The position numbers and the translations under genes were made by a program. From contig NZ_NKTX01000001.1 in assembly GCF_003207815.1 (NCBI RefSeq), positions 310,001-374,000 on the forward strand: a stretch of DNA of 64,000 nucleotides. The letters are read 5' to 3'. The DNA comes from Komagataeibacter oboediens. Its GTDB lineage: Bacteria > Pseudomonadota > Alphaproteobacteria > Acetobacterales > Acetobacteraceae. Below the pieces are notes generated by a model. The model was not told the origin of the DNA, made no database searches, and saw only the letters and a list, made by a program, of their open reading frames with translations. Shown here in pieces: positions 51,090 through 63,807 of this stretch. Each line of letters opens with the position of its first letter. Position 1 is the stretch's first letter.

Positions 51090-53402
51090 ATGCAACAAAG
51101 AACACCACCCCCGAACGGGAGACCGAATCCATTGGCTACATCGCCACGCAAAGCCCCGGAAGATACCCCGCGCAAGCCGCGTCCGCGCGCGCGCAGCCGC
51201 AAGCCGGCCGCGACCGGGCGGCAGGTTGCGGTACGTGCGCCGATGGAACCCGTACCCGACGCCACATCGCCCGCGCGCTTCATCAACCGTGAACTGTCAT
51301 GGCTCGATTTCAACCAGCGCGTGGTGGACGAAGCCGACAACCCACGCAATCCGCTGCTTGAACGCGTGCGCTTCCTGTCGATCAGCGCCAGCAACCTTGA
51401 CGAGTTCTATTCCGTGCGCGTGGCCGGGCTGGTGGGGCAGGTGCGCGAGGGGCTGGTCAAGACATCCCCCGACGGGCTGACGCCACAGCAGCAGCTGTCC
51501 GCCGTGCGCGAGCGTACCGGGCGCCTGCTGCAGGAACAGCAGCGCATCTGGCGCGACCTGCAGCGCGAGCTGGAGGAGGCGGGCATTGTCGTGCGCGATG
51601 AAATCTCCTTCACGCCAGAGGAGCAGGCATGGCTGGAAACCTGTTTCATGGAACGGGTCTTTCCCGTCCTGACCCCGCTGGCCATCGACCCGGCCCATCC
51701 GCTGCCCTTCATTCCCAACATGGGTATTGCGCAGGCATTGCGGCTGATGAATGCCGAAACAGGCCAGTTCGTGATGGAGGCGCTGATCCTGCTGCCCGCG
51801 CGGATCGAACGCTTCATCCGCCTGCCGGCTGCCCTGTCGCCACCGGGGGTGACGCGTTTCATCCTGCTGGAACGGCTGATTGTCATGTGCATCGACCGCC
51901 TGTTCCCCGGTCTTGTGGCAGGGGACTGGGGGGTGATGCGCGTGGTGCGCGATACGGACGTGGAATTCGAGGACGAGGCCGAGGATCTGGTCCGGTCGTA
52001 TGAAAGCGCGCTGAAACGCCGCAGGCGGGGCGTGGTGATCCATCTGGACATCGAGGCCCGCATGCCCGAGGACCTGGCCCGGTCCATGGCCGAGGGGCTG
52101 GCCCCGCCACCGGATGAAGTGTTCGTGCAGTCCGGGCTGATCGGCGTGGTCGACCTCAAGCAGCTGATTGTCGATGACCGGCCCGACCTGCTGTTCGCCC
52201 CCTATACCCCACGTTTTCCCGAACGGATTGTCGATTGCGGGGGCGACTGCTTCGCTGCCATCCGCGCGCGCGACATGATCGTGCATCACCCCTTTGAAAG
52301 CTTTGACGTGGTGGTGCAGTTCCTGCGTCAGGCCGCCATCGATCCCGCCGTGGTCGCGATCAAGCAGACGCTTTACCGCACATCGCGCGACAGCCCCATC
52401 GTCAAGGCCCTGATCGAGGCGGCGGAAGCTGGCAAGGCCGTGACCGCCATGGTGGAACTGCGTGCGCGCTTTGATGAGGAAGCCAACATCCGCCTTGCCC
52501 GCGCGCTGGAAGGGGCGGGGGTGCAGGTGGTCTTTGGCTTTTCCGACCTCAAGACGCATGCCAAGCTCAGCCTTGTCGTGCGGCGCGAGGGGGGGGCGTT
52601 GCGCTCCTACGCCCATTTCGGCACCGGCAATTATCACCCGATCACGGCGCGGATCTATACCGACCTGTCGTTTTTCACCTGCAATCCCGAACTGGCGCGG
52701 GACTCGGCGCGGCTGTTCAATTACATGACCGGCTACGCCGTGCCCGCGCGGATGGAGGCGATCGCATTTTCGCCCGTGACCATCCGCCGCACGATCGAGG
52801 AACTGATCGCGGGGGAAATCGCCCATGTGCAGGCAGGCCGTCCGGGGCAGATCTGGCTCAAGATGAACTCACTGGTTGATCCCGACCTGATCGACCGGCT
52901 GTACGCCGCGTCATGCGCCGGGGTGAAGATCACGGCCGTGGTGCGGGGGATCTGCTGCCTGCGCCCCGGTGTTCCGGGGCTGTCGGACAATATCAAGGTC
53001 AAGTCGATTGTCGGGCGTTTTCTGGAACATGCCCGCATCTACGCCTTTGGCGACGGGCACCGGCTGCCCAGCCGGCAGGCGAAGCTGTATATTTCCTCGG
53101 CGGACTGGATGCAGCGCAACATGGACTGGCGGGTGGAAAGCATGGTGCCCATGCTGGACCCGCAGGTCCATGCCCGCGTGCTTGAGCAGATCATGATGAT
53201 CGACCTCAAGGACAACCTGCAGTCGTGGATTCTACAGCGGAACGGTGTATGGCGTCGGCTGGAGCCGGGGCGTCGACCCTTTTCATCCCATGAATATTTC
53301 ATGGAACATCCGGTCCATGCAGGACGGGCCACGGTGGGCGATGCCCCGATCCGGGTCAGCGCGTCCCAGCCATGGCATGCGGAACAGACGATTGAGGACT
53401 AG
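51090..53402 (+). CDS. ppk: Polyphosphate kinase 1
   Basis: This 770-residue enzyme makes polyphosphate from ATP. After a basic proline-rich extension of about 60 residues it has [17 protein letters not shown], the [11 protein letters not shown] region, and [15 protein letters not shown] with the phosphorylated catalytic histidine. [12 protein letters not shown] and a second histidine region near [20 protein letters not shown] follow, all typical of PPK1. The ATG at 51090 lacks a good binding site; a later start is possible because the first 50 residues are not conserved. ppx follows 27 bases downstream. Confidence 0.97.
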
Positions 53403-53429: not shown

Positions 53430-54944
53430 ATGGTGGGCTGGCGACATATGGGGCCGGATGTGACGGTGGATGGCGGGTTTCGCCGCTCGGCGGTCATAGA
53501 TCTGGGATCGAATTCCGTCCGCCTTGTGGTGTTTGACGGGATTTCGCGCAATCCGGCTCCCATTTTCAATGAAAAGGTGGTCCTGCGACTGGGGCGGGGC
53601 CTGAATGCGACGGGACGCCTGAATGAGGAAGCCGTACCCCTGGCGATGGAGGTCATGGCCCGTTTCAACGCCATCGCGCGCGGGATGGAGGCCAGTCCGT
53701 TCGAGGTCCTGGCCACCGCCGCCGTGCGTGACGCCAGCAACGGGCCGGAATTCGTGGCGGGGCTGAAATCCCGGCTGCCCGGCGTTCCGATCCGTATCCT
53801 GAGCGGGGAGGAGGAAGCCGATTATTCCGCCACCGGCGTCCTGTGCGGCATACCGGACGCCAACGGGCTGGTGGCCGATATTGGCGGCGGGTCGCTGGAA
53901 CTGATCCGGCTGGAAAACGGGCGCAAGCTCAATGCCTGCACGCTGCCGCTGGGTGTGATCAGGCTGAATGACCGTGCCGATGGCGATCTGGCCCGCGCCC
54001 GCGCGCTGGTGGACGAGGATCTGGCCAGGGTTGGGTGGCTGGATGACGTGCATGGCCAGGACCTGTACCTGGTGGGCGGGGCGTTTCGCGCGCTGGCACG
54101 CATGCAGATCGCCCGGACGGCCTACCCACTGAATATCGTGCATCTGTACAGCCTCACGCCCGATGTTACGCGGGAAATGGCGGACTGGATCATTGGTGCG
54201 GGCAAGCGTTCGCTCGAACGCCTGCCCGGCGTGCCGCGCAAGCGGCTGGAGGATGCGCCTTACGCCGCGACGGTGCTGCGCAGGCTCATGCGGCGTACGC
54301 ATTCAACGGGGCTGGTGTTCTGTGTCGATGGCCTGCGCGAAGGCTGGTACATGCGCAACGTCGCCGCCAGCGTGTCGGGAAATGACCCGCAGGATGCCGT
54401 CGCGCGTGAAATGTGCAGCATGCTGGGACGCAGCATGACCCTGCCCGAACGTCTGGCGGAATGGACCGCGCCCCTTTTCCCGGATGAAGGTCAGGTCGCA
54501 ACCCGCCTGCGCAGCGTTGCATGCTGGCTGTCGGACGTGGGCGCGCATGATCACCCCGAGTACCGCGCGGAACAGACCTATCTGCGTATCCTGCGCATGC
54601 AGGGGGTGGGCTTTACCCATCAGGCGCGTGCGTTCCTGTCACTGACGCTTGCGGTCCGGTATGGCGCGGATCTGTCGGTGGCGTATCTGCAGCCGTCGCG
54701 GCAGCTGCTGGATCAGGTACAGTTTGGCCGTGCCGTGGCGCTGGGGCAGGCATTGCGGCTGGCCTATACCGTCAGTGGCGGGACCGAGGCGCTGCTGGAT
54801 GGCACGCGGCTGGACTGTATGGACGGCGTCCTGTCGCTGCATTTCGCGCCGGGGCGCGATGTGGTGCAGGGCGAAAGCGTGCGCCGCAGGCTGGAACGGC
54901 TGGGCACTGCGCTGGATATGACGGTCAGGATCCGCGATCACTGA
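53430..54944 (+). CDS. ppx: Exopolyphosphatase (Ppx/GppA family)
   Basis: This 504-residue protein has the actin-like phosphatase domain: AVIDLGSNSVRLVVFDG, ATAAVRDASNGPEFV, LSGEEEADYSATGVLCG and VADIGGGSLELI. The C-terminal HD-like helical domain is present. It degrades polyphosphate or pppGpp; pairing with ppk favours polyphosphate. The N-terminal 15 residues are not conserved, so the start may be the ATG 18 bases further on. Downstream 31 bases lies the hydantoinase-like gene, which could be read through. Confidence 0.95.
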   Translation: MVGWRHMGPDVTVDGGFRRSAVIDLGSNSVRLVVFDGISRNPAPIFNEKVVLRLGRGLNATGRLNEEAVPLAMEVMARFNAIARGMEASPFEVLATAAVRDASNGPEFVAGLKSRLPGVPIRILSGEEEADYSATGVLCGIPDANGLVADIGGGSLELIRLENGRKLNACTLPLGVIRLNDRADGDLARARALVDEDLARVGWLDDVHGQDLYLVGGAFRALARMQIARTAYPLNIVHLYSLTPDVTREMADWIIGAGKRSLERLPGVPRKRLEDAPYAATVLRRLMRRTHSTGLVFCVDGLREGWYMRNVAASVSGNDPQDAVAREMCSMLGRSMTLPERLAEWTAPLFPDEGQVATRLRSVACWLSDVGAHDHPEYRAEQTYLRILRMQGVGFTHQARAFLSLTLAVRYGADLSVAYLQPSRQLLDQVQFGRAVALGQALRLAYTVSGGTEALLDGTRLDCMDGVLSLHFAPGRDVVQGESVRRRLERLGTALDMTVRIRDH

Positions 54945-54975: not shown

Positions 54976-56364
54976 ATGGGCATGCGGCATGGACATGGGC
55001 GCGACCTGCTGCTGATCCGTGGCGGCATGGTGGTGACGGGGCAGGCCAGCCTGCGGGTGGATGTGCTGTGTGGCGGCGCGGACGGGATCCTGGCCGTCGG
55101 TCCCGATCTGGATATTCCCGCCGGGTGCGCGGTGGTGGATGCCGGTGGCCTGCTGGTTATGCCCGGCGGGGTGGACGCGCATACCGCCATCGGCGCGGAT
55201 GAGGCGGGATTCGCCTGCACGATGGACGCCCTGTCCGGTGGTACGACCACCATACTCGACACCATGTGCCCCGGGAATGACGGGCTGGATGCGGCGTGGC
55301 GGGCGTGGCGGCATGCGGCACGCCGGTCGCATGTCGATGTCGGGCTGCATATGGCGCTGCCGGATGCGGGCGAAGCCGTGCTGGATGGCATGGACGCGCT
55401 GGTGATGGACAGGGGCGTGAACACCTTTCATCTGTCCATGGCGGCCGGGCTGTCTGACCGCGCCATCCTGAAACTGTCCCGCCATGCCACGGATTGCGGG
55501 GCGTTGTGCCGGATTGCCGCCCAGAACGCGCAGGCCGTGGCCTATCTGCGTGCGGAACTGGATCAGGCGGGCATTACCGGCGGGGAAGCCTGCCTGCTGT
55601 CGGCCCCCCCGCAGGTCGAGGCCGAAGCGGTGGACCGTGCCATCATGCTGGCGGGCCTCGTGGGTGCGCCAGTGCATGTGGGGCCGGTTTCCACCACCGG
55701 GGCCACGGAGGGCCTTGCGCGCGCGCGCCTGCGCGGGCAGCGGGTGGAGGGGCATGTGCTGGCCCCGCATCTGGTCGTGGATGAAGCGGTCTATGATCCC
55801 GAAGGGGATAGGGCAGGCGAACCCGACCCGTATCTGACCCTGCCGCCCTTTCGTGACGTGGCCCATCGGCGTGCGCTGTGGGGGGCTGTGGCATCGGGCA
55901 ACATCGGCATGGTCGCCAGCGGGTTCCGTGCGGCGGGCATGGGGGACGACGGGCTGGTGGACGGCCTTGCGCAGCGCATGCGCGTGGTCTGGCGGCATGG
56001 CGTGCAGGCGGGCGTGCTGACGGCGGAGGAATTCGTGGCCGTCACGTCACAGGCGGCGGCGCGCGCCTTCAATATTTACCCTCGCAAGGGGGCGATCATG
56101 CCGGGCGCGGATGCGGATATCGTCCTGTGGGACGGCGGGGCGGAAGAAACGTGCCCCGCTGCCCCGTCCGCCCTGTATGCGGGGATCACGCTGGGGGGGC
56201 GTGCGGTGCAGGTCATTCGCGGCGGGGTGACGGTGTGGAAGGACAACAGGCCGTACGCCGCCGCGTGGCGCGGGTCGTATGTGCCATGCCCGGCGTTCCG
56301 TCCCGCGCTGTCGGCACGGATGCGCAGGGCGGCGCACCTGTCCACGCGTGACGGGGAACCATAG
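54976..56364 (+). CDS. Dihydropyrimidinase/hydantoinase-fold protein lacking all metal ligands (putative pseudo-enzyme)
   Basis: This 462-residue protein aligns along its length with D-hydantoinase/dihydropyrimidinase: MPGGVDAHT, DALSGGTTTILD, RGVNTFHLSMA, GALCRIAAQNA, APVHVGPVSTTG, and a very well conserved end, RAFNIYPRKGAIMPGADADIVLWD. The metal-site residues are changed: HxH reads H69-T-A71, the carboxylated Lys is H152, the next His is A181, the following His is P237 and the catalytic Asp is G316. With these gone it should bind no binuclear zinc and be inactive on hydantoins. The frame is intact and the C-terminal fold residues are kept, so it is likely a folded non-catalytic homologue, as animal CRMPs are. 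It precedes xdhA by 142 bases on the same strand. Confidence 0.82.
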   Translation: MGMRHGHGRDLLLIRGGMVVTGQASLRVDVLCGGADGILAVGPDLDIPAGCAVVDAGGLLVMPGGVDAHTAIGADEAGFACTMDALSGGTTTILDTMCPGNDGLDAAWRAWRHAARRSHVDVGLHMALPDAGEAVLDGMDALVMDRGVNTFHLSMAAGLSDRAILKLSRHATDCGALCRIAAQNAQAVAYLRAELDQAGITGGEACLLSAPPQVEAEAVDRAIMLAGLVGAPVHVGPVSTTGATEGLARARLRGQRVEGHVLAPHLVVDEAVYDPEGDRAGEPDPYLTLPPFRDVAHRRALWGAVASGNIGMVASGFRAAGMGDDGLVDGLAQRMRVVWRHGVQAGVLTAEEFVAVTSQAAARAFNIYPRKGAIMPGADADIVLWDGGAEETCPAAPSALYAGITLGGRAVQVIRGGVTVWKDNRPYAAAWRGSYVPCPAFRPALSARMRRAAHLSTRDGEP

Positions 56365-56506: not shown

Positions 56507-58006
56507 TTGACGGGGATCAGACACGGTATCCGTTTCTATGTCGGAAACGAATGCCACACGTTGGCCGATGTCGCGCCAACGCGTACGCTGCTGGACTGGC
56601 TGCGCGAGGATCGCGGCCTGACCGGCACCAAGGAAGGCTGTAACGAAGGCGATTGCGGGGCGTGCACCGTTCTGGTGGTGCGGTTGGAGGGCGACCGGCT
56701 GGTCTGGCGTGCGGTCAATGCCTGCATCCAGTTCGTCTCGATGCTGGACGGCGCGCAGGTCCTGACCATCGAGGACGTACGCGCCCCCGATGGCAGCCTG
56801 CATCCGGTACAGCAGGCCATGGTGGACCAGCATGGCTCGCAGTGTGGCTTCTGCACGCCCGGCTTTGTCATGTCCATGGTGGCGGGCCGCAAGGCCGACG
56901 GACTGGCGCAGGATGAGCACGCAATTGACGACATGCTGGCGGGCAACCTGTGCCGCTGCACCGGCTACGCGCCCATCGTGCGTGCCATGCGGCAGGCCAT
57001 GGAAGCAGGGCCTGACCATTTTGATGCGCAGGCCCATGCGATTGCGGATCGCCTGCGCGCCCTTCGCGATGGCGCGACGGTGGAACTTGGCGGGCCTGCG
57101 GGCCGCCTGACCATTCCGGCGACAGGGGACGCGCTGGCGCAGACCATGGTGGCGGACCCCGATGCACGGATCGTGGCCGGCGCGACCGATGTGGGCCTGT
57201 GGGTGACCAAGGGTATGCGCGACCTGCCGCATATCGTCACCATCGGGCAGGTGCCCGACCTGCGCCGGATCGAATGCAGTGCGGACGGCGTGTACCTGGG
57301 TGCCGCCGTAACGTGGCAGGAAGCGCGTGCGGCGCTGGCGGACATCCTGCCGCAGCCGGATGCGGAGGTAATCCGCCGCATCGGGTCCGTGCAGGTGCGC
57401 AACAGCGGCACGGTATGCGGCAACATCGCCAACGGTTCGCCCATTGGTGACGGACCGCCGGTGCTGATCGCGGCGGGGGCGAAGCTGCACCTGCGCCGTG
57501 GGGATGCGCGGCGTGTTATCGCGCTGGAAGATTTCTTCATCGATTACGGCAAACAGGACCGCGCGCCGGGTGAGTTCGTGGAAGGCGTGAGCATTCCCCG
57601 TCCCACGCCGGATACCGTGGTCCGGGCATGGAAGGTTTCCAAACGGTTCGATCAGGATATTTCGGCCATTCTGGGGGCTTTTTCGCTCACGATCGCGCCT
57701 GATGGCACCATCACCAATGCCCGCGTGGCCTTTGGTGGCATGGCGGCCACACCGCGCCGCGCCAGCCGGACGGAAGCCGCACTTGAAGGCCGGAAGTGGG
57801 ACGAGACCACGCTGGCTGCTGCGCGGCAGGCCATGATGGATGATTTCGCGCCCATTACCGACATGCGGGCCAGCGACTGGTACCGCCGCACCGTCGCGGC
57901 CAATCTGCTGACCCGGCTTTACGCCGATTGCGGACCACGGGACGCACGTGCACAGACCAGCGTGCGCGCCGCGTGCGCCGCTGCGGGAGAACACGCACAT
58001 GGCTGA
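56507..58006 (+). CDS. xdhA: Xanthine dehydrogenase, small subunit (2Fe-2S and FAD domains)
   Basis: This 499-residue subunit has a plant-type [2Fe-2S] cluster (C45, C50, C53, C73) in EGCNEGDCGACTVLV. A second [2Fe-2S] cluster follows (CGFC at 113-116, CRC at 149-151), then an FAD-binding domain (IVAGATDVGLWVTKG, GNIANGSPIGDGPPVLI). It passes electrons from the molybdenum subunit to NAD or another acceptor. The start is TTG at 56507, chosen because AGAGGGA lies eight bases upstream and homology starts immediately; no ATG fits. It overlaps xdhB by eight bases. Confidence 0.95.
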   Translation: MTGIRHGIRFYVGNECHTLADVAPTRTLLDWLREDRGLTGTKEGCNEGDCGACTVLVVRLEGDRLVWRAVNACIQFVSMLDGAQVLTIEDVRAPDGSLHPVQQAMVDQHGSQCGFCTPGFVMSMVAGRKADGLAQDEHAIDDMLAGNLCRCTGYAPIVRAMRQAMEAGPDHFDAQAHAIADRLRALRDGATVELGGPAGRLTIPATGDALAQTMVADPDARIVAGATDVGLWVTKGMRDLPHIVTIGQVPDLRRIECSADGVYLGAAVTWQEARAALADILPQPDAEVIRRIGSVQVRNSGTVCGNIANGSPIGDGPPVLIAAGAKLHLRRGDARRVIALEDFFIDYGKQDRAPGEFVEGVSIPRPTPDTVVRAWKVSKRFDQDISAILGAFSLTIAPDGTITNARVAFGGMAATPRRASRTEAALEGRKWDETTLAAARQAMMDDFAPITDMRASDWYRRTVAANLLTRLYADCGPRDARAQTSVRAACAAAGEHAHG

Positions 58007-60365
58007 TGGAAACGGCTTTGCCACGACGGCCCCTGCGTCGGGGGACGGCATTGTGGCCGGTGGCGCATCACGCAGCCTGCGGCATGAAAGTGCCGCCATG
58101 CACGTGCAGGGCAGTGCCGCCTATATTGATGATCTGCCCGAACCGCGCGGCACGCTGCACCTTGTCCCGGGGCTGAGCGCGCGCGCCCATGCCCGCATCG
58201 TGTCCATGGATCTTGATGCAGTAAGGCAGGCCGAAGGCGTGGTGGGTGTCTATACCGCCGCCGATATTCCCGGCGAGAATCAGATCAGCCCCGTCGGCAA
58301 GGGGGATGAGCCCCTGCTGGCGAGCACCGAGGTCTCGTTTTATGGCCAGCCTTTATTCGTGGTCGCCGCGACCACGCGCATGGCTGCACGCCGGGCCGTG
58401 CGGCTGGCCAGAGTGGAATATGAAGACCTGCCTGCCATCCTGAACGTGGCCGAGGCCCGCGCGGCGGGTAGTCCCATGGTCTGGCGACCGATGGAAATGA
58501 AGCGTGGCGACGTGGTGGCCGGGCTGGAGCACGCGCCCCGCAGGCTGTCTGGCCGCATTACCGTGGGCGGGCAGGAACATTTCTACCTCGAAGGGCAGAT
58601 CGCCCTTGCCCGTCCGGGTGAGGAAGGGGAGATGCATGTCACCTCCTCCACCCAGCATCCGACCGAAACCCAGCACATGGTCGCCCATGTGCTGGACCGT
58701 CCCGCCAACCTGGTGACGGTGGAGGTCCGGCGCATGGGCGGCGGCTTTGGCGGCAAGGAAACGCAGGCCAATGCCTGTGCCTGCCTTTCGGCGCTGGTGG
58801 CCGACCTGACCGGGCGCGCGGCCAAGATGCGACTGGACCGTGACGACGACATGACCATGACCGGCAAGCGGCATGATTTCGTCATTGATTACGATGTCGG
58901 CTATACCGACGAGGGACATATCCTTGCGGTGGACATGGTGCTGGCGGCGCGGTGCGGGTGGTCGGCCGACCTGTCCGGCCCCGTGATCGACCGTGCGCTG
59001 TTCCATGCGGACAATGCCTATTTCTATCCCGATGTGCGCCTGCGCTCCGAACCGCTGCGCACCAATACGCAGTCCAATACCGCCTATCGCGGCTTTGGCG
59101 GCCCGCAGGGCATTGTCGCGGCCGAGCGCGTGATCGAGGAAATTGCCTTCGCCACCGGCCTTGATCCGCTGGAGGTCAGGCTGCGCAATGCCTATGGCAC
59201 GCATGACCGCAACGTCACGCCCTACAACATGGTGGTCGAGGACTCGATTACCGCAGACGTCCTGCCTGAACTGGCGCGACGCTGCCATTATGTGAAACGG
59301 CGCGAGGCCTGCCGTGCATTCAATGCCGGCAGTCCCTACCTGCGGCGCGGTATTGCGATCACGCCGGTCAAGTTCGGCATTTCCTTTACCGCCACGCATT
59401 ACAATCAGGCGGGCGCGCTGGTTCATGTCTATACCGACGGGTCGGTGCAGGTGAATCACGGCGGCACGGAAATGGGGCAGGGCCTGCATACCAAGATGGT
59501 GCAGGTCGTCATGCGTGAACTGGGGCTGGGCACGGATCAGGTGCGCATTACCGCCACCACGACGGGCAAGGTGCCCAATACGTCGGCTACCGCCGCGTCG
59601 TCCGGGGCGGACCTCAATGGCATGGCGGTGCTGGACGCGGTGCGCCGGATCAAGCGCAGGCTGGTGGAATTCGCGGCCGGCCACTGGAACGTGGCCGAGG
59701 ACGACGTCCGCTTCGCGCCCGATGGCGTGCATGTCGGGCAGAAGGTGATCGCGTTTTCGCACCTGACGCGGCAGGCCTATTTTGCACGTGTGTCCATGTC
59801 CGCCAACGGGTTTTACAAGACGCCCAAGATTTCATGGAACGGGGATACGGGGCAGGGCCGTCCCTTCTATTACTTTGCATACGGGGCGGCGTGTTCGGAG
59901 GTCGTGATCGACCTGCTGACGGGGGAGATGAAGATCGACCGCGTGGACATCCTTCATGACGCGGGGCAGTCCCTGAACCCTGTTCTGGACATCGGGCAGG
60001 TCGAAGGCGGCTTCGTGCAGGGCGCCGGATGGCTGACCTGCGAGGAACTGGTATGGGATAAGGCGGGCCGCCTGCGCACGCATGCGCCCAGCACGTACAA
60101 GATCCCGGCCTGCTCCGACCGCCCACGGGTGTTCAATGTCGAACTGCTGGAAAACGCGCCCAACCGGGAATACAGCATTTTCCGCTCCAAGGCCGTGGGG
60201 GAACCGCCATTCGTCCATGGGGTGTCGGTGCTGCAGGCGGTGTCCGATGCGCTGGCCAGTCTGGATGACTATCGCACCTGTCCCCGTCTGGACGCGCCCG
60301 CCACGCCGGAAATGATCCTGCGCGTGGCCGAACGCATGCGGCACGGCAACCCGCCCGCCGCCTGA
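57999..60365 (+). CDS. xdhB: Xanthine dehydrogenase, large molybdopterin-binding subunit
   Basis: This 788-residue subunit has the molybdopterin-binding segments GGQEHFYLEGQIAL, RRMGGGFGGKETQ and AYRGFGGPQG, then QVNHGGTEMGQGLHTKM. The catalytic Glu735 is in VGEPPFVHG. These match bacterial XdhB, which hydroxylates hypoxanthine and xanthine to urate. Given the neighbours, other N-heterocycles are possible. The ATG at 57999 has GGGAG upstream; the eight-base overlap with xdhA implies coupling. Confidence 0.95.
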   Translation: MADGNGFATTAPASGDGIVAGGASRSLRHESAAMHVQGSAAYIDDLPEPRGTLHLVPGLSARAHARIVSMDLDAVRQAEGVVGVYTAADIPGENQISPVGKGDEPLLASTEVSFYGQPLFVVAATTRMAARRAVRLARVEYEDLPAILNVAEARAAGSPMVWRPMEMKRGDVVAGLEHAPRRLSGRITVGGQEHFYLEGQIALARPGEEGEMHVTSSTQHPTETQHMVAHVLDRPANLVTVEVRRMGGGFGGKETQANACACLSALVADLTGRAAKMRLDRDDDMTMTGKRHDFVIDYDVGYTDEGHILAVDMVLAARCGWSADLSGPVIDRALFHADNAYFYPDVRLRSEPLRTNTQSNTAYRGFGGPQGIVAAERVIEEIAFATGLDPLEVRLRNAYGTHDRNVTPYNMVVEDSITADVLPELARRCHYVKRREACRAFNAGSPYLRRGIAITPVKFGISFTATHYNQAGALVHVYTDGSVQVNHGGTEMGQGLHTKMVQVVMRELGLGTDQVRITATTTGKVPNTSATAASSGADLNGMAVLDAVRRIKRRLVEFAAGHWNVAEDDVRFAPDGVHVGQKVIAFSHLTRQAYFARVSMSANGFYKTPKISWNGDTGQGRPFYYFAYGAACSEVVIDLLTGEMKIDRVDILHDAGQSLNPVLDIGQVEGGFVQGAGWLTCEELVWDKAGRLRTHAPSTYKIPACSDRPRVFNVELLENAPNREYSIFRSKAVGEPPFVHGVSVLQAVSDALASLDDYRTCPRLDAPATPEMILRVAERMRHGNPPAA

Positions 60366-60369
60366 TCAC

Positions 60370-61224
60370 ATGGGCATGCAGATGCGCGCGGATCTGGCGC
60401 GATGGCGGATGTCAGGCCAGCCCATCGCCCGGATCAGTGTATCGGACGCGCGGGGGTCCACCCCGCGTGAGGCCGGAACCTTCATGCTGGTCACCCCCAC
60501 AGAACAGTCTGGCACGATCGGTGGCGGGGATCTGGAATGGAACGCCATCCACCACGCCCGCAGGCTGCTGGAACATGGCGGCGACGCGCTGGTCCAGCGC
60601 ATAAGCCTGGGGGGTAATTCGGGCCAGTGCTGCGGCGGGGAGGTCTGGCTGAACCTTGACCTGCCCGCCCCCCACAGGCTGGACGCCATCATGGAACAGC
60701 TGGAACACCAGCGCCGGATGCAGCCGCTGCTGCTTCTGTTCGGGGCGGGGCATGTGGGCCGCGCGCTGGCGCATGTGCTGGTCCCGCTGCCGCTGCGCCT
60801 TGCATGGTGCGATTCGCGCCCGCATGAATTCGGTTCAACCATTCCCCCGGGGGTAGAGGTGCATGACGATGGCGCATGGGAACGTCTGGTCGCCAGCGCG
60901 CCCGCGGGTTCAGGCGCGCTGGTCCTGACGCAGAGCCATGCGCTGGACAGCGTTATTGTTGCATCCATCCTGGAACGGGGGGATTTTCGATATGTCGGCC
61001 TGATTGGTTCGCATACGAAGCGCCGCCGGTTCGAAGCCGGGTTCCGCCAGATCGGCCTGCCGGAAGACCGCATCGCCGCACTGGTCTGCCCGATCGGGGA
61101 CCGGGGCGTGCGTGACAAGCGGCCCGCCGTCATCGCCGCACTGGTCGCGGCAGAAATTGTTACCCGCTTCCTGCACCCCGTGCAGGCGGGCGGTCATGTA
61201 AACGGGGATGACACCAGCCCATGA
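60370..61224 (+). CDS. xdhC: XdhC, molybdenum-cofactor insertion/maturation factor
   Basis: This 284-residue protein has the XdhC/CoxI N-terminal part (GSTPREAGTFMLV, IGGGDLEWNAIHHARRLL, GGNSGQCCGGEVWL) and a Rossmann C-terminal domain (FGAGHVGRALAHVL, YVGLIGSHTKRRRF). It binds and sulphurates the molybdenum cofactor before insertion into XdhB. It begins four bases after xdhB and overlaps the LysR gene by four bases. Confidence 0.95.
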   Translation: MGMQMRADLARWRMSGQPIARISVSDARGSTPREAGTFMLVTPTEQSGTIGGGDLEWNAIHHARRLLEHGGDALVQRISLGGNSGQCCGGEVWLNLDLPAPHRLDAIMEQLEHQRRMQPLLLLFGAGHVGRALAHVLVPLPLRLAWCDSRPHEFGSTIPPGVEVHDDGAWERLVASAPAGSGALVLTQSHALDSVIVASILERGDFRYVGLIGSHTKRRRFEAGFRQIGLPEDRIAALVCPIGDRGVRDKRPAVIAALVAAEIVTRFLHPVQAGGHVNGDDTSP

Positions 61225-62177
61225 ACGATCCGCTTTCCCGTACGCCCCGCATGATGCGGCTGCACGCGCGGGGCATTTCCTATTTCAACGCCGTGCGGGA
61301 ATGCCGCTCCATCCGCGAGGCGGCGCGAAGGCTGAACGTCACGCCGTCCGCCCTGACCCGCCAGCTTGCGCAGATGGAGGCGGAAATCGGCGCCCCCCTG
61401 TTCGACCGCCTGCCCGATGGCATGGTGCTGACGGAAGTGGGCACGATCATGGCCCGGCATATCGTTACCGTCATGCAGGATGCCGCCCGGACGGAGGAAC
61501 AGATCAACGCCCTGTCCGGTCGGCATGACGGGCGGCTGCGTATCATGGCGGTGGAAGGGATTGCGGGACAGCTGCTGCCCGCCCTGCTGGAACGCATCAT
61601 TTCCGCCTATCCGGCCGTGGAACTGCATGTGGAAGTCGGTGCGCCCAAGACCATCGTCTCCGCCCTGCAGGACGGGCGGGTGGATCTGGGCATTGCGTTT
61701 TCGCTGGCGCTGTACCCCGAACTGCGGCGGGTGGCGGTGGGGCATTTCCCTGTTGGCGCGGTGGTGCGCGCGGACCATCCGCTGGCGCACCTGCGCACGG
61801 TCACGGTGGAGGAATGTACGGCCTATCGCCTGATCCTGCCTACACGCACGCTGTCGCTGTACCGTGTCATGGAACCCATGCTGCGCCCGTGGCAGGACCG
61901 GCTGAACGTGGTGTTGCAGACCGGATCGATCGAACTGACCAACCGCATGGTGCAGGCGGGCGTCGGGCTGGCGTTCCAGTCCCCGCTGGCGGTGGGCGTG
62001 CAGCCGGGACAGGACACCCTGCGCCATGTGCCGCTGCGTGATACCCGGGCGGTTACGGACCTCGGGGCCTATGTGCGGGAATCCCGCTGGCTGCCGCCGC
62101 TGCTGGAAACGGTGATTGAGGAACTGCGCCTGGAACTGCGGCGTGTGCAGGGTGTCAGCGATGAACGGGTGGTCTGA
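61221..62177 (+). CDS. LysR-family transcriptional regulator
   Basis: This 318-residue protein has the helix-turn-helix YFNAVRECRSIREAARRLNVTPSALTRQLAQMEAEIGAPLF. An effector-binding domain with two lobes follows (for example GRLRIMAVEGIAGQLLPALL, TGSIELTNRMVQAGVGLAFQ). It lies downstream in the same direction as xdhABC, overlapping xdhC (ATGA), rather than divergent as is usual. It probably controls the xdh cluster and possibly the following flavoprotein gene; the effector is unknown. Confidence 0.93.
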   Translation: MNDPLSRTPRMMRLHARGISYFNAVRECRSIREAARRLNVTPSALTRQLAQMEAEIGAPLFDRLPDGMVLTEVGTIMARHIVTVMQDAARTEEQINALSGRHDGRLRIMAVEGIAGQLLPALLERIISAYPAVELHVEVGAPKTIVSALQDGRVDLGIAFSLALYPELRRVAVGHFPVGAVVRADHPLAHLRTVTVEECTAYRLILPTRTLSLYRVMEPMLRPWQDRLNVVLQTGSIELTNRMVQAGVGLAFQSPLAVGVQPGQDTLRHVPLRDTRAVTDLGAYVRESRWLPPLLETVIEELRLELRRVQGVSDERVV

Positions 62178-62331: not shown

Positions 62332-63807
62332 ATGAATGGGAACCCGCAGATGGATACCACAACGCAGCCGAATGCCGGGACGGCCGGCGGGCTTGCTGCA
62401 CTGGATGCGGCAGTGCGCCGGGATCTTGAGATCATCCGTTATCCCCGCAAGGAATGGGTTCCCCCCATGGAACGTGACGGCCAGCGCGTGCTGGACGTGG
62501 CCATTATCGGGGGCGGGCAGGGTGGTCTTGCCACAGCCTTCGCGCTTAAGCGCAATAACATCACCAATGTCCGCATCTTTGACCGTGCGGCCAAGGGGGG
62601 CGAAGGCCCGTGGGTGACATTCGCGCGCATGATCACGCTGCGCACGCCCAAATACGTGACCGGCCCCGACCTTGGCGTGCCGTCCCTGACCCCGCGTTCG
62701 TGGTACGAAGCGCAGTATGGCGCCGAAGCCTGGGAAAAGCTGGACAAAATTCCGCGTGGGCAGTGGCAGGCCTATCTGGACTGGTACCGCGACATCCTGA
62801 AGCTGCCGGTCGCCAATGACCATGATTTCCAGGGCGTGACATGGGAAGGTGGCCTGCTGCGCCTGACCTTCCGTCGTCCCGACGGTTCGACCCATGTGCA
62901 TTACGCGCGCAAGCTGGTGCTGGCTACCGGGATCGAAGGCTGCGGGTCGTGGCATGTGCCCGACTTCGTCCGCGATGGCCTGCCGCGTGCGCGGTATGCC
63001 CACACGTCGGAAAACATTGATTTCGCGGCGCTGAAGGGCAAGCGGATCGGTGTGCTGGGGGCTGGTGCCTCGGCGTTTGATAACGCGGCCACGGCGCTGG
63101 AAGACGGTGCGGGCAGCGTGACGCTGTGCCTGCGGCGCAAGGAAATCCCGTCCATCAACCCGTACCGGTGGATGGAAAATACCGGCTTCCTCGCCTATTA
63201 CCCCGCCCTGTCGGATGAGCTGCGCTGGGGCTTCATGCGCCGGATTTTCGAACTCAACCAGCCGCCGCCGCAGGATACGTTCTGGCGCTGCCGTCGGCAT
63301 GCGAACTTCTCCTTCCGCACGGGCTGTCCCTGGACGGGCGTGCGCATGGACGGGGATGAGATCGTGGTCGATTCGCCCACTGGTGAGATGCGGTTCGATT
63401 TCGTGATTATCGGCACGGGTTTCACAACCGACCTGTCCCGCAGGGCCGAGACGAAATCCTTCGCCCCCTCCGTCGCGCTGTGGGGTGATCGCTACACCGC
63501 ACCCGCCGGGTCGGAAAGCGCCGTGCTGGAAAGCTATCCCTATCTGGGGGAAAACTACCAGTTCCTGCCGCGCCGTGCGGATGATCCGCTGGCGCCCATG
63601 CTGGCGAACATCCATAATTTCACGTTCTCCGCCACGCCAAGCATGGGTCTGTCGGGGGCGTCCATCAGCGGCATGCGCTTTGGCGTGGAGCGTCTGGCAC
63701 ACGGGCTTGGGCGTGACCTGTACGTGGCCGATGGCAGGCAGCACCTTGAAAGTCTGCTGGCCTATGACGTGCCGGAACTGGTCAGTCTCGACCCTCCTGT
63801 TGCATGA
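62332..63807 (+). CDS. FAD/NAD(P)-binding flavoprotein monooxygenase-like protein
   Basis: This 491-residue protein has two Rossmann nucleotide sites, AIIGGGQGGLATAF (60-65 core) and GVLGAGASAFDNAA (243-247 core). Between them lies a region like the flavin-containing/class B monooxygenases (FAD/NAD(P)-binding or SidA-type proteins) with ATGIEG. A near-C-terminal IIGTGFTTDLSRR completes the FAD pattern. Such enzymes hydroxylate N- or C-atoms using NADPH and O2. The first ATG is at 62332; ATG at 62350 (MDTTTQPNAG) is an alternative. It is separate from the LysR gene by 154 bases and is next to an AtzG-like gene, which fits N-heterocycle breakdown. Confidence 0.85.
   Translation: MNGNPQMDTTTQPNAGTAGGLAALDAAVRRDLEIIRYPRKEWVPPMERDGQRVLDVAIIGGGQGGLATAFALKRNNITNVRIFDRAAKGGEGPWVTFARMITLRTPKYVTGPDLGVPSLTPRSWYEAQYGAEAWEKLDKIPRGQWQAYLDWYRDILKLPVANDHDFQGVTWEGGLLRLTFRRPDGSTHVHYARKLVLATGIEGCGSWHVPDFVRDGLPRARYAHTSENIDFAALKGKRIGVLGAGASAFDNAATALEDGAGSVTLCLRRKEIPSINPYRWMENTGFLAYYPALSDELRWGFMRRIFELNQPPPQDTFWRCRRHANFSFRTGCPWTGVRMDGDEIVVDSPTGEMRFDFVIIGTGFTTDLSRRAETKSFAPSVALWGDRYTAPAGSESAVLESYPYLGENYQFLPRRADDPLAPMLANIHNFTFSATPSMGLSGASISGMRFGVERLAHGLGRDLYVADGRQHLESLLAYDVPELVSLDPPVA

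Follow-up and report, generated by a model that had tools for sequence, protein, structure and literature searches.

A dihydropyrimidinase homologue without its metal site is maintained beside a predicted ureide pathway in two genera of acetic-acid bacteria

Between polyphosphate genes and xanthine dehydrogenase genes of Komagataeibacter oboediens lies a long open reading frame that belongs by sequence with the dihydropyrimidinases (DHPs), and that an earlier note on this DNA had described as a hydantoinase-fold gene in which every metal-binding residue has been replaced. The question raised by this locus is whether a metalloenzyme gene has been kept after the loss of its metal site and, if so, what the protein now does. 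The window analysed is a stretch of 64,000 nucleotides (contig NZ_NKTX01000001.1, positions 310,001 to 374,000), and we refer to the protein as pDHP, for pseudo-dihydropyrimidinase. The gene and its surroundings in the window are:

51090-53402, forward strand: ppk (polyphosphate kinase), fixed upstream context by synteny, named by reading its sequence rather than by a family search
53430-54944, forward strand: ppx (exopolyphosphatase family), 31 bp upstream of pDHP; TIGR03706 at 286 bits, cut-off 307
54976-56364, forward strand: pDHP, 462 amino acids, free of internal stops; predicted DHP fold, best NCBIfam model TIGR02033
56392-56421, forward strand: weak sigma-70-like consensus match in the gap between pDHP and xdhA (the scan gave 2 matches, with 2.1 expected)
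56507-58006, forward strand: xdhA, xanthine dehydrogenase small subunit, off the locus in 5 of 23 genomes
57999-60365, forward strand: xdhB, molybdopterin subunit, absent genome-wide (at E 1e-80) from the same 5 of 23
60370-61224, forward strand: xdhC, accessory protein, assigned by family search and synteny
61221-62177, forward strand: LysR-type regulator, downstream of pDHP in 23 of 23 genomes; no NCBIfam model above cut-off
62332-63807, forward strand: flavin-dependent oxidoreductase (FMO; Pyr_redox_3 / Lys_Orn_oxgnase), uncharacterised, downstream of pDHP in 23 of 23 genomes

The top NCBIfam model for pDHP is the dihydropyrimidinase equivalog TIGR02033, which the whole protein matches at 279.1 bits, below the curated cut-off of 393.25. 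When solved structures were searched by sequence, the Pseudomonas aeruginosa DHP came first (E 7e-78), followed by other bacterial DHPs and only then by the CRMPs, the first of which was DPYSL4 (E 3e-59); in this PDB ranking (CRMPs were absent from our tree) pDHP is therefore not closest kin to the CRMPs. An AF2 model computed from an alignment of 54 rows (alignment A2; 6 pDHP sequences and 48 others) reached a pLDDT of 87.3 and a pTM of 0.89, and Foldseek matched it to the P. aeruginosa DHP 5e5c (TM 0.88-0.89; 36-37% identity in the structure alignment, over nearly the whole length) and to CRMPs (TM 0.87-0.89). The barrel and beta-sandwich are present in the predicted model and its structural matches, and in the alignment with solved DHPs both the N-terminal sandwich and the C-terminal NIYPRKGAI-GADAD block are retained. 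We predict with high confidence that pDHP folds as a DHP; because the model derives mostly from DHP homologues, it speaks for compatibility with that fold and not for the detail of the pocket.

The metal positions of pDHP were read against 31 distinct canonical DHP genes (40 rows, nine being a gene fetched twice) and against solved DHPs:

55180-55182, forward strand: H69, first His of HxH, kept in the window; replaced by Q, L or R in 8 of the 23
55186-55188, forward strand: A71 in place of the second His of HxH; A, G, S or R across the 23, with a 7-residue loop deletion after it
55447-55449, forward strand: G158 in place of the carboxylated Lys; G, A, E or D across the 23, with a 4-residue deletion after it
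55516-55518, forward strand: A181 in place of a metal His; E in 17, D in 4 and A in 2 of 23
55684-55686, forward strand: P237 in place of a metal His; P in 23 of 23
55921-55923, forward strand: G316 in place of the metal Asp; G in 23 of 23, with a loop deletion after it

Five of the six metal ligands are thus missing from the window protein, and H69 alone survives. The statement that every ligand had been replaced holds for those five and not for the first His; A71, A181, P237 and G316 had been read in the right register, whereas H152, taken for the carboxylated Lys, corresponds to the first Lys of FKHFMAYK; the carboxylated Lys is the last of that motif and aligns with G158. No ligand was found in another register or restored in any of the 23 orthologues. 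In alignment A2 the gap placement puts the second-His position inside the deletion, and in neither alignment is there a His at that position. The binuclear site formed by HxH, carboxylated Lys, His, His and Asp is incomplete in the window protein and in all 23 orthologues, each of which keeps one ligand or none, and the absence of the same five ligands throughout two genera is far beyond chance.

The losses extend to the loops of the active site, which are shortened by 7 residues after HxH, by 4 after MAYK and by a further stretch after TDHC. Canonical Y157 and S289 are not conserved in pDHP and the Asn of IPNG is deleted; we take these three to be the substrate-binding residues of canonical DHPs. 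Among 193 columns invariant in 24 canonical rows, pDHP keeps 75, is fixed for something else at 29 (a deletion at 15 of these) and is mixed at 89, and 14 residues fixed in all 23 pDHPs never occur in those 24 rows. In the alignment as a whole all six ligands are present in 40 rows, and five more distant rows have D or E for the Lys; in alignment A2 the Lys, both later His and the Asp are retained in 48 of 48 other rows, some of these genes being repeated from the first alignment. Hydantoinase-like genes of the more distant kind (L029, L030, L036, L037 and L038) have D or E for the carboxylated Lys and keep HxH, the later two His and the Asp. Because five ligands and parts of three loops are gone, metal-dependent hydrolysis by the known mechanism is, to judge from the chemistry of the family, very unlikely in pDHP.

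Orthologues of pDHP were found in 19 of 19 Komagataeibacter genomes, the other 18 copies being 65-94% identical to that of the window, and in 4 of 4 genomes of a second genus, g97 (L043-L046), which are 47-50% identical and have suffered the same ligand losses. All 23 frames are full-length and open; three Komagataeibacter matches (L007, L009 and L015) cross a stop at the C-terminal end, with frames of 458, 454 and 480 amino acids before it. In a draw of 299 genomes of the family, 69 had a match at E 1e-60, at 70 places, and the 34 places that were read comprised 11 pDHPs, 22 genes with all six ligands and one truncated gene. An exact DNA pattern for V[HQ]xGPVST, which a diverged carrier would escape, matched in 22 of 397 family genomes, including all 14 Komagataeibacter and all 4 g97 genomes of the draw and four others. 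At the sites of three of these others (L193-L195) and at two extra sites (L201 and L207) there was no protein match, and by this pattern, with G321 and two extra sites left out of the reading, the 397 genomes held no further pDHP carrier.

Is a gene so altered at its active site still under selection? dN/dS for pDHP was 0.098-0.301 in nine close pairs and had a median of 0.27 (range 0.10-0.61) over 244 pairs with dS of 0.1-1.2. Neutral simulations at four divergences (60 each, 240 in total) gave a minimum dN/dS of 0.67, and at the largest divergence one of 60 simulated pairs was free of stops, a conservative count since simulated dS lay under the observed (0.09-0.40 vs 0.11-0.58). Because dN/dS is far under neutral and so few simulated pairs stayed open, we conclude that pDHP is maintained under purifying selection. 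The earlier note had seen here a maintained, non-catalytic homologue rather than a decaying gene, and this view is borne out as to maintenance and agrees with the residues as to probable inactivity. The combination found, an enzyme fold by prediction, a lost catalytic motif and retention by selection, would make pDHP a pseudoenzyme.

The constraint is relaxed, since pDHP evolves faster than the active enzyme and most of its neighbours. In the same five genomes dN/dS was 0.029-0.122 for canonical DHP and 0.205-0.331 for pDHP, and by the same method pDHP is as loosely constrained as hdaA (median 0.27) and more loosely than xdhC (0.22), xdhA (0.158), ppx (0.125), FMO (0.096) and LysR (0.077). This relaxation, and a transposase-like ORF lying between ppx and pDHP in one genome (G004), would suit a dead gene in slow decay, constrained only against misfolding or against polarity on the genes downstream. 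We consider such decay unlikely, because pDHP is open in 23 of 23 genomes across two genera, its dN/dS and the single stop-free pair among 60 set it well apart from neutral evolution, and its slowest stretch, residues 361-390, evolves at a dN/dS of 0.05 (the fastest, residues 121-150, at 0.41).

Given that pDHP probably still folds and is still selected, it would work without its old metal catalysis. One way to do so would be as a metal-free enzyme, in which newly fixed residues of a reshaped pocket would take the place of the metal in a new reaction, with a ureide or some other metabolite as substrate. V66, I72, G73, D75, G236, P237 and G316 are fixed in pDHP at or beside the former metal positions (by position in the sequence), residue 181 is acidic in 21 of 23 orthologues, and the neighbouring genes are those of ureide breakdown, all of which favour this idea. 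However, positions 71 and 158 are variable, the window protein and a sister sequence have Ala at 181 where most orthologues have Glu, and the only residues fully fixed at ligand positions are Pro and Gly, neither an obvious catalyst; a new catalytic activity therefore seems to us quite unlikely.

In all 23 genomes pDHP lies directly behind ppk-ppx and ahead of LysR-FMO-AtzE (the AtzE of the window genome is in L092). The proteins scoring above cut-offs near pDHP are XdhA, XdhB, XdhC, an AtzE-family amidohydrolase, an M20 allantoate amidohydrolase, a PuuE allantoinase and UraD. The cluster also carries AtzG-like and HIU hydrolase/transthyretin proteins, an aminotransferase closest to the ureidoglycine-glyoxylate aminotransferase 3nnk, and a gamma-glutamyltransferase homologue that falls under its cut-off and has 5hft, presumably HpxW, as its best solved relative. 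In the window genome the cluster (62332-63807 together with positions 1-9349 of L092) includes UraH, UraD and PuuE. From these family assignments, the cluster beside pDHP is a predicted purine-to-ureide pathway. Neither uricase (PF01014) nor the PuuD-type Urate_ox_N domain (PF06181) was found in any of 26 genomes, and HpxO gave no match above cut-off in the same 26 (weak matches in 13, the best at 207 of 500 bits); a candidate for this apparently absent step, the oxidation of urate, is the conserved FMO.

xdhABC stands next to pDHP, in the same orientation, in 18 of 23 genomes, which is what recommends the idea, raised in the earlier note, that pDHP scaffolds or regulates xanthine dehydrogenase. 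As a general role this does not hold up: the locus lacks xdhABC in five genomes (G002 and all four of g97), a genome-wide search of these five gave no xdhB match at E 1e-80, and each of them retains pDHP. In addition, a canonical DHP occupies the same slot beside the same xdhABC in Gluconacetobacter, so the adjacency is probably older than the loss of the active site, and we regard the proposal as highly improbable.

DHPs and CRMPs form homo- and hetero-tetramers, but for most genomes the thought that pDHP is an inactive subunit assembling with a canonical DHP is scarcely credible, since a second match at E 1e-60 occurs in only 5 of 19 Komagataeibacter genomes and in none of the 4 g97 genomes (five candidates scored per genome). 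More distant hydantoinase-like genes are present in some genomes. pDHP as the remnant of a working reductive pyrimidine pathway was likewise rejected, as PreA is complete in only 5 of 19 Komagataeibacter genomes and above cut-off in none of the 4 g97 genomes. A further Komagataeibacter genome, G011, in which a second DHP was not found at E 1e-60, contains a partial PreA match (positions 122-420 at C193:5752-6645); this may reflect a pyrimidine pathway in decay or the end of a contig. Homologues of the M20 enzyme of the pyrimidine pathway were found in 26 of 26 genomes searched, at 34-78% identity, so this enzyme alone says little about that pathway. pDHP persists in genomes that lack xdhB, and most of its genomes lack PreA or a second canonical DHP, so its role must be sought elsewhere.

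Where did pDHP come from? A tree built from 35 canonical rows and 16 of the 23 pDHP rows places pDHP in one clade on a long stem (SH-aLRT 100). The long stem leaves its placement among canonical DHPs open: in AU tests two groupings escape rejection, one joining pDHP to the Gluconacetobacter copies (p 0.434) and one joining it to the second DHP of Komagataeibacter (p 0.267). Gene order is the better guide. In G. diazotrophicus and G. liquefaciens (L124 and L122) the order is ppk-ppx-NCS1-AptA-M20b-canonical DHP-xdhABC-LysR-FMO-AtzE, and in G. azotocaptans (L121) it is the same from NCS1 onward, the examined stretch ending short of ppx. A further genus (G027) has ppk-ppx-NCS1-AptA-M20b-canonical DHP-FMO-AtzE, and DHP-FMO-AtzE recurs in L098, L099 and L103. 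Around the DHPs examined in G. asukensis and G. tumulicola the gene order is different, which counts against an origin from a shared slot. On the shared gene order, we conclude that the DHP slot is probably old, that neighbouring pyrimidine genes were lost from it, and that the DHP was altered in place. The canonical DHP in this slot of Gluconacetobacter shares 44-46% identity with pDHP and is a more remote relative than the orthologues. Five Komagataeibacter genomes have a second DHP, of the canonical kind, on another stretch no more than about 20 kb from PreA and from an M20b homologue. Of these second DHPs, the three included in the tree cluster with another, non-ppx type of locus; synteny and tree thus disfavour pDHP as a recent duplicate of that gene, which the AU test does not reject.

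Our preferred explanation, to which as a whole we give a probability of roughly 60%, is that pDHP is a DHP altered in situ that now serves ureide breakdown, either as a non-catalytic partner or by binding a ligand. An ancestor shared with Gluconacetobacter would have carried a canonical DHP between ppk-ppx and the ureide (purine) genes. The NCS1 permease, the AptA aminotransferase and the M20 amidohydrolase would then have disappeared from this slot, and the DHP would have had its metal ligands and active-site loops replaced, most simply before Komagataeibacter and g97 split. The surviving protein may act as a structural or ligand-sensing partner of the adjacent pathway (LysR, FMO, AtzG-AtzE, HpxW-like, HpxK/HpxJ-like and PuuE). 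The constant companions of pDHP are the downstream ureide genes and upstream ppk-ppx, and a ureide role is the one we favour; with LysR, FMO and AtzE downstream in every genome, scaffolding of the amidase or ureide binding, both suggested in the earlier note, are possible. We infer that pDHP is inactive and oligomeric and has a partner or a ligand. A sharper version would make pDHP an indispensable partner for one of the ureide enzymes, perhaps the conserved FMO, which might supply urate oxidation, and so a CRMP counterpart with a metabolic job; this strikes us as doubtful.

Two known systems offer parallels, which would have arisen independently. The CRMPs of animals are, according to an excerpt of PMC4051505, DHP homologues without DHP activity, and CRMP-4 retains two of the six metal residues, with Leu for the carboxylated Lys. 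Like them, pDHP is a DHP homologue without the canonical metal site; unlike them, it is a separate, bacterial case with one ligand or none, shortened loops and a setting in purine catabolism. The pseudo-dihydroorotase (pDHO) of Pseudomonas, described in an excerpt of PMC7053772 as inactive yet required for ATCase, is likewise a bacterial cyclic-amidohydrolase homologue that has lost its activity, as pDHP probably has. pDHO belongs, on that account, to the dihydroorotase branch and to pyrimidine synthesis, with ATCase as its partner, whereas pDHP belongs to the DHP branch and its partner is presumed. In the literature searched we found no paper covering both Komagataeibacter and dihydropyrimidinase, and none on an inactive or pseudo DHP or hydantoinase under such names.

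pDHP thus appears to represent an independent origin of a pseudoenzyme from dihydropyrimidinase. Together with the canonical DHP at the same locus in Gluconacetobacter, an active-looking positional counterpart, it provides a before-and-after pair of genes with which one can ask, in readily grown bacteria, how a metalloenzyme becomes non-catalytic. Selection on pDHP in two genera points to a new job, probably tied to purine breakdown. In 22 of 23 genomes only 2-297 bp separate pDHP from ppx, less than the distance to any of the ureide genes, and a connection with ppk-ppx is therefore also possible. In G004 the ORF that separates ppx from an open pDHP frame (L081:10558-11658) encodes 366 amino acids and was judged transposase-like by eye.
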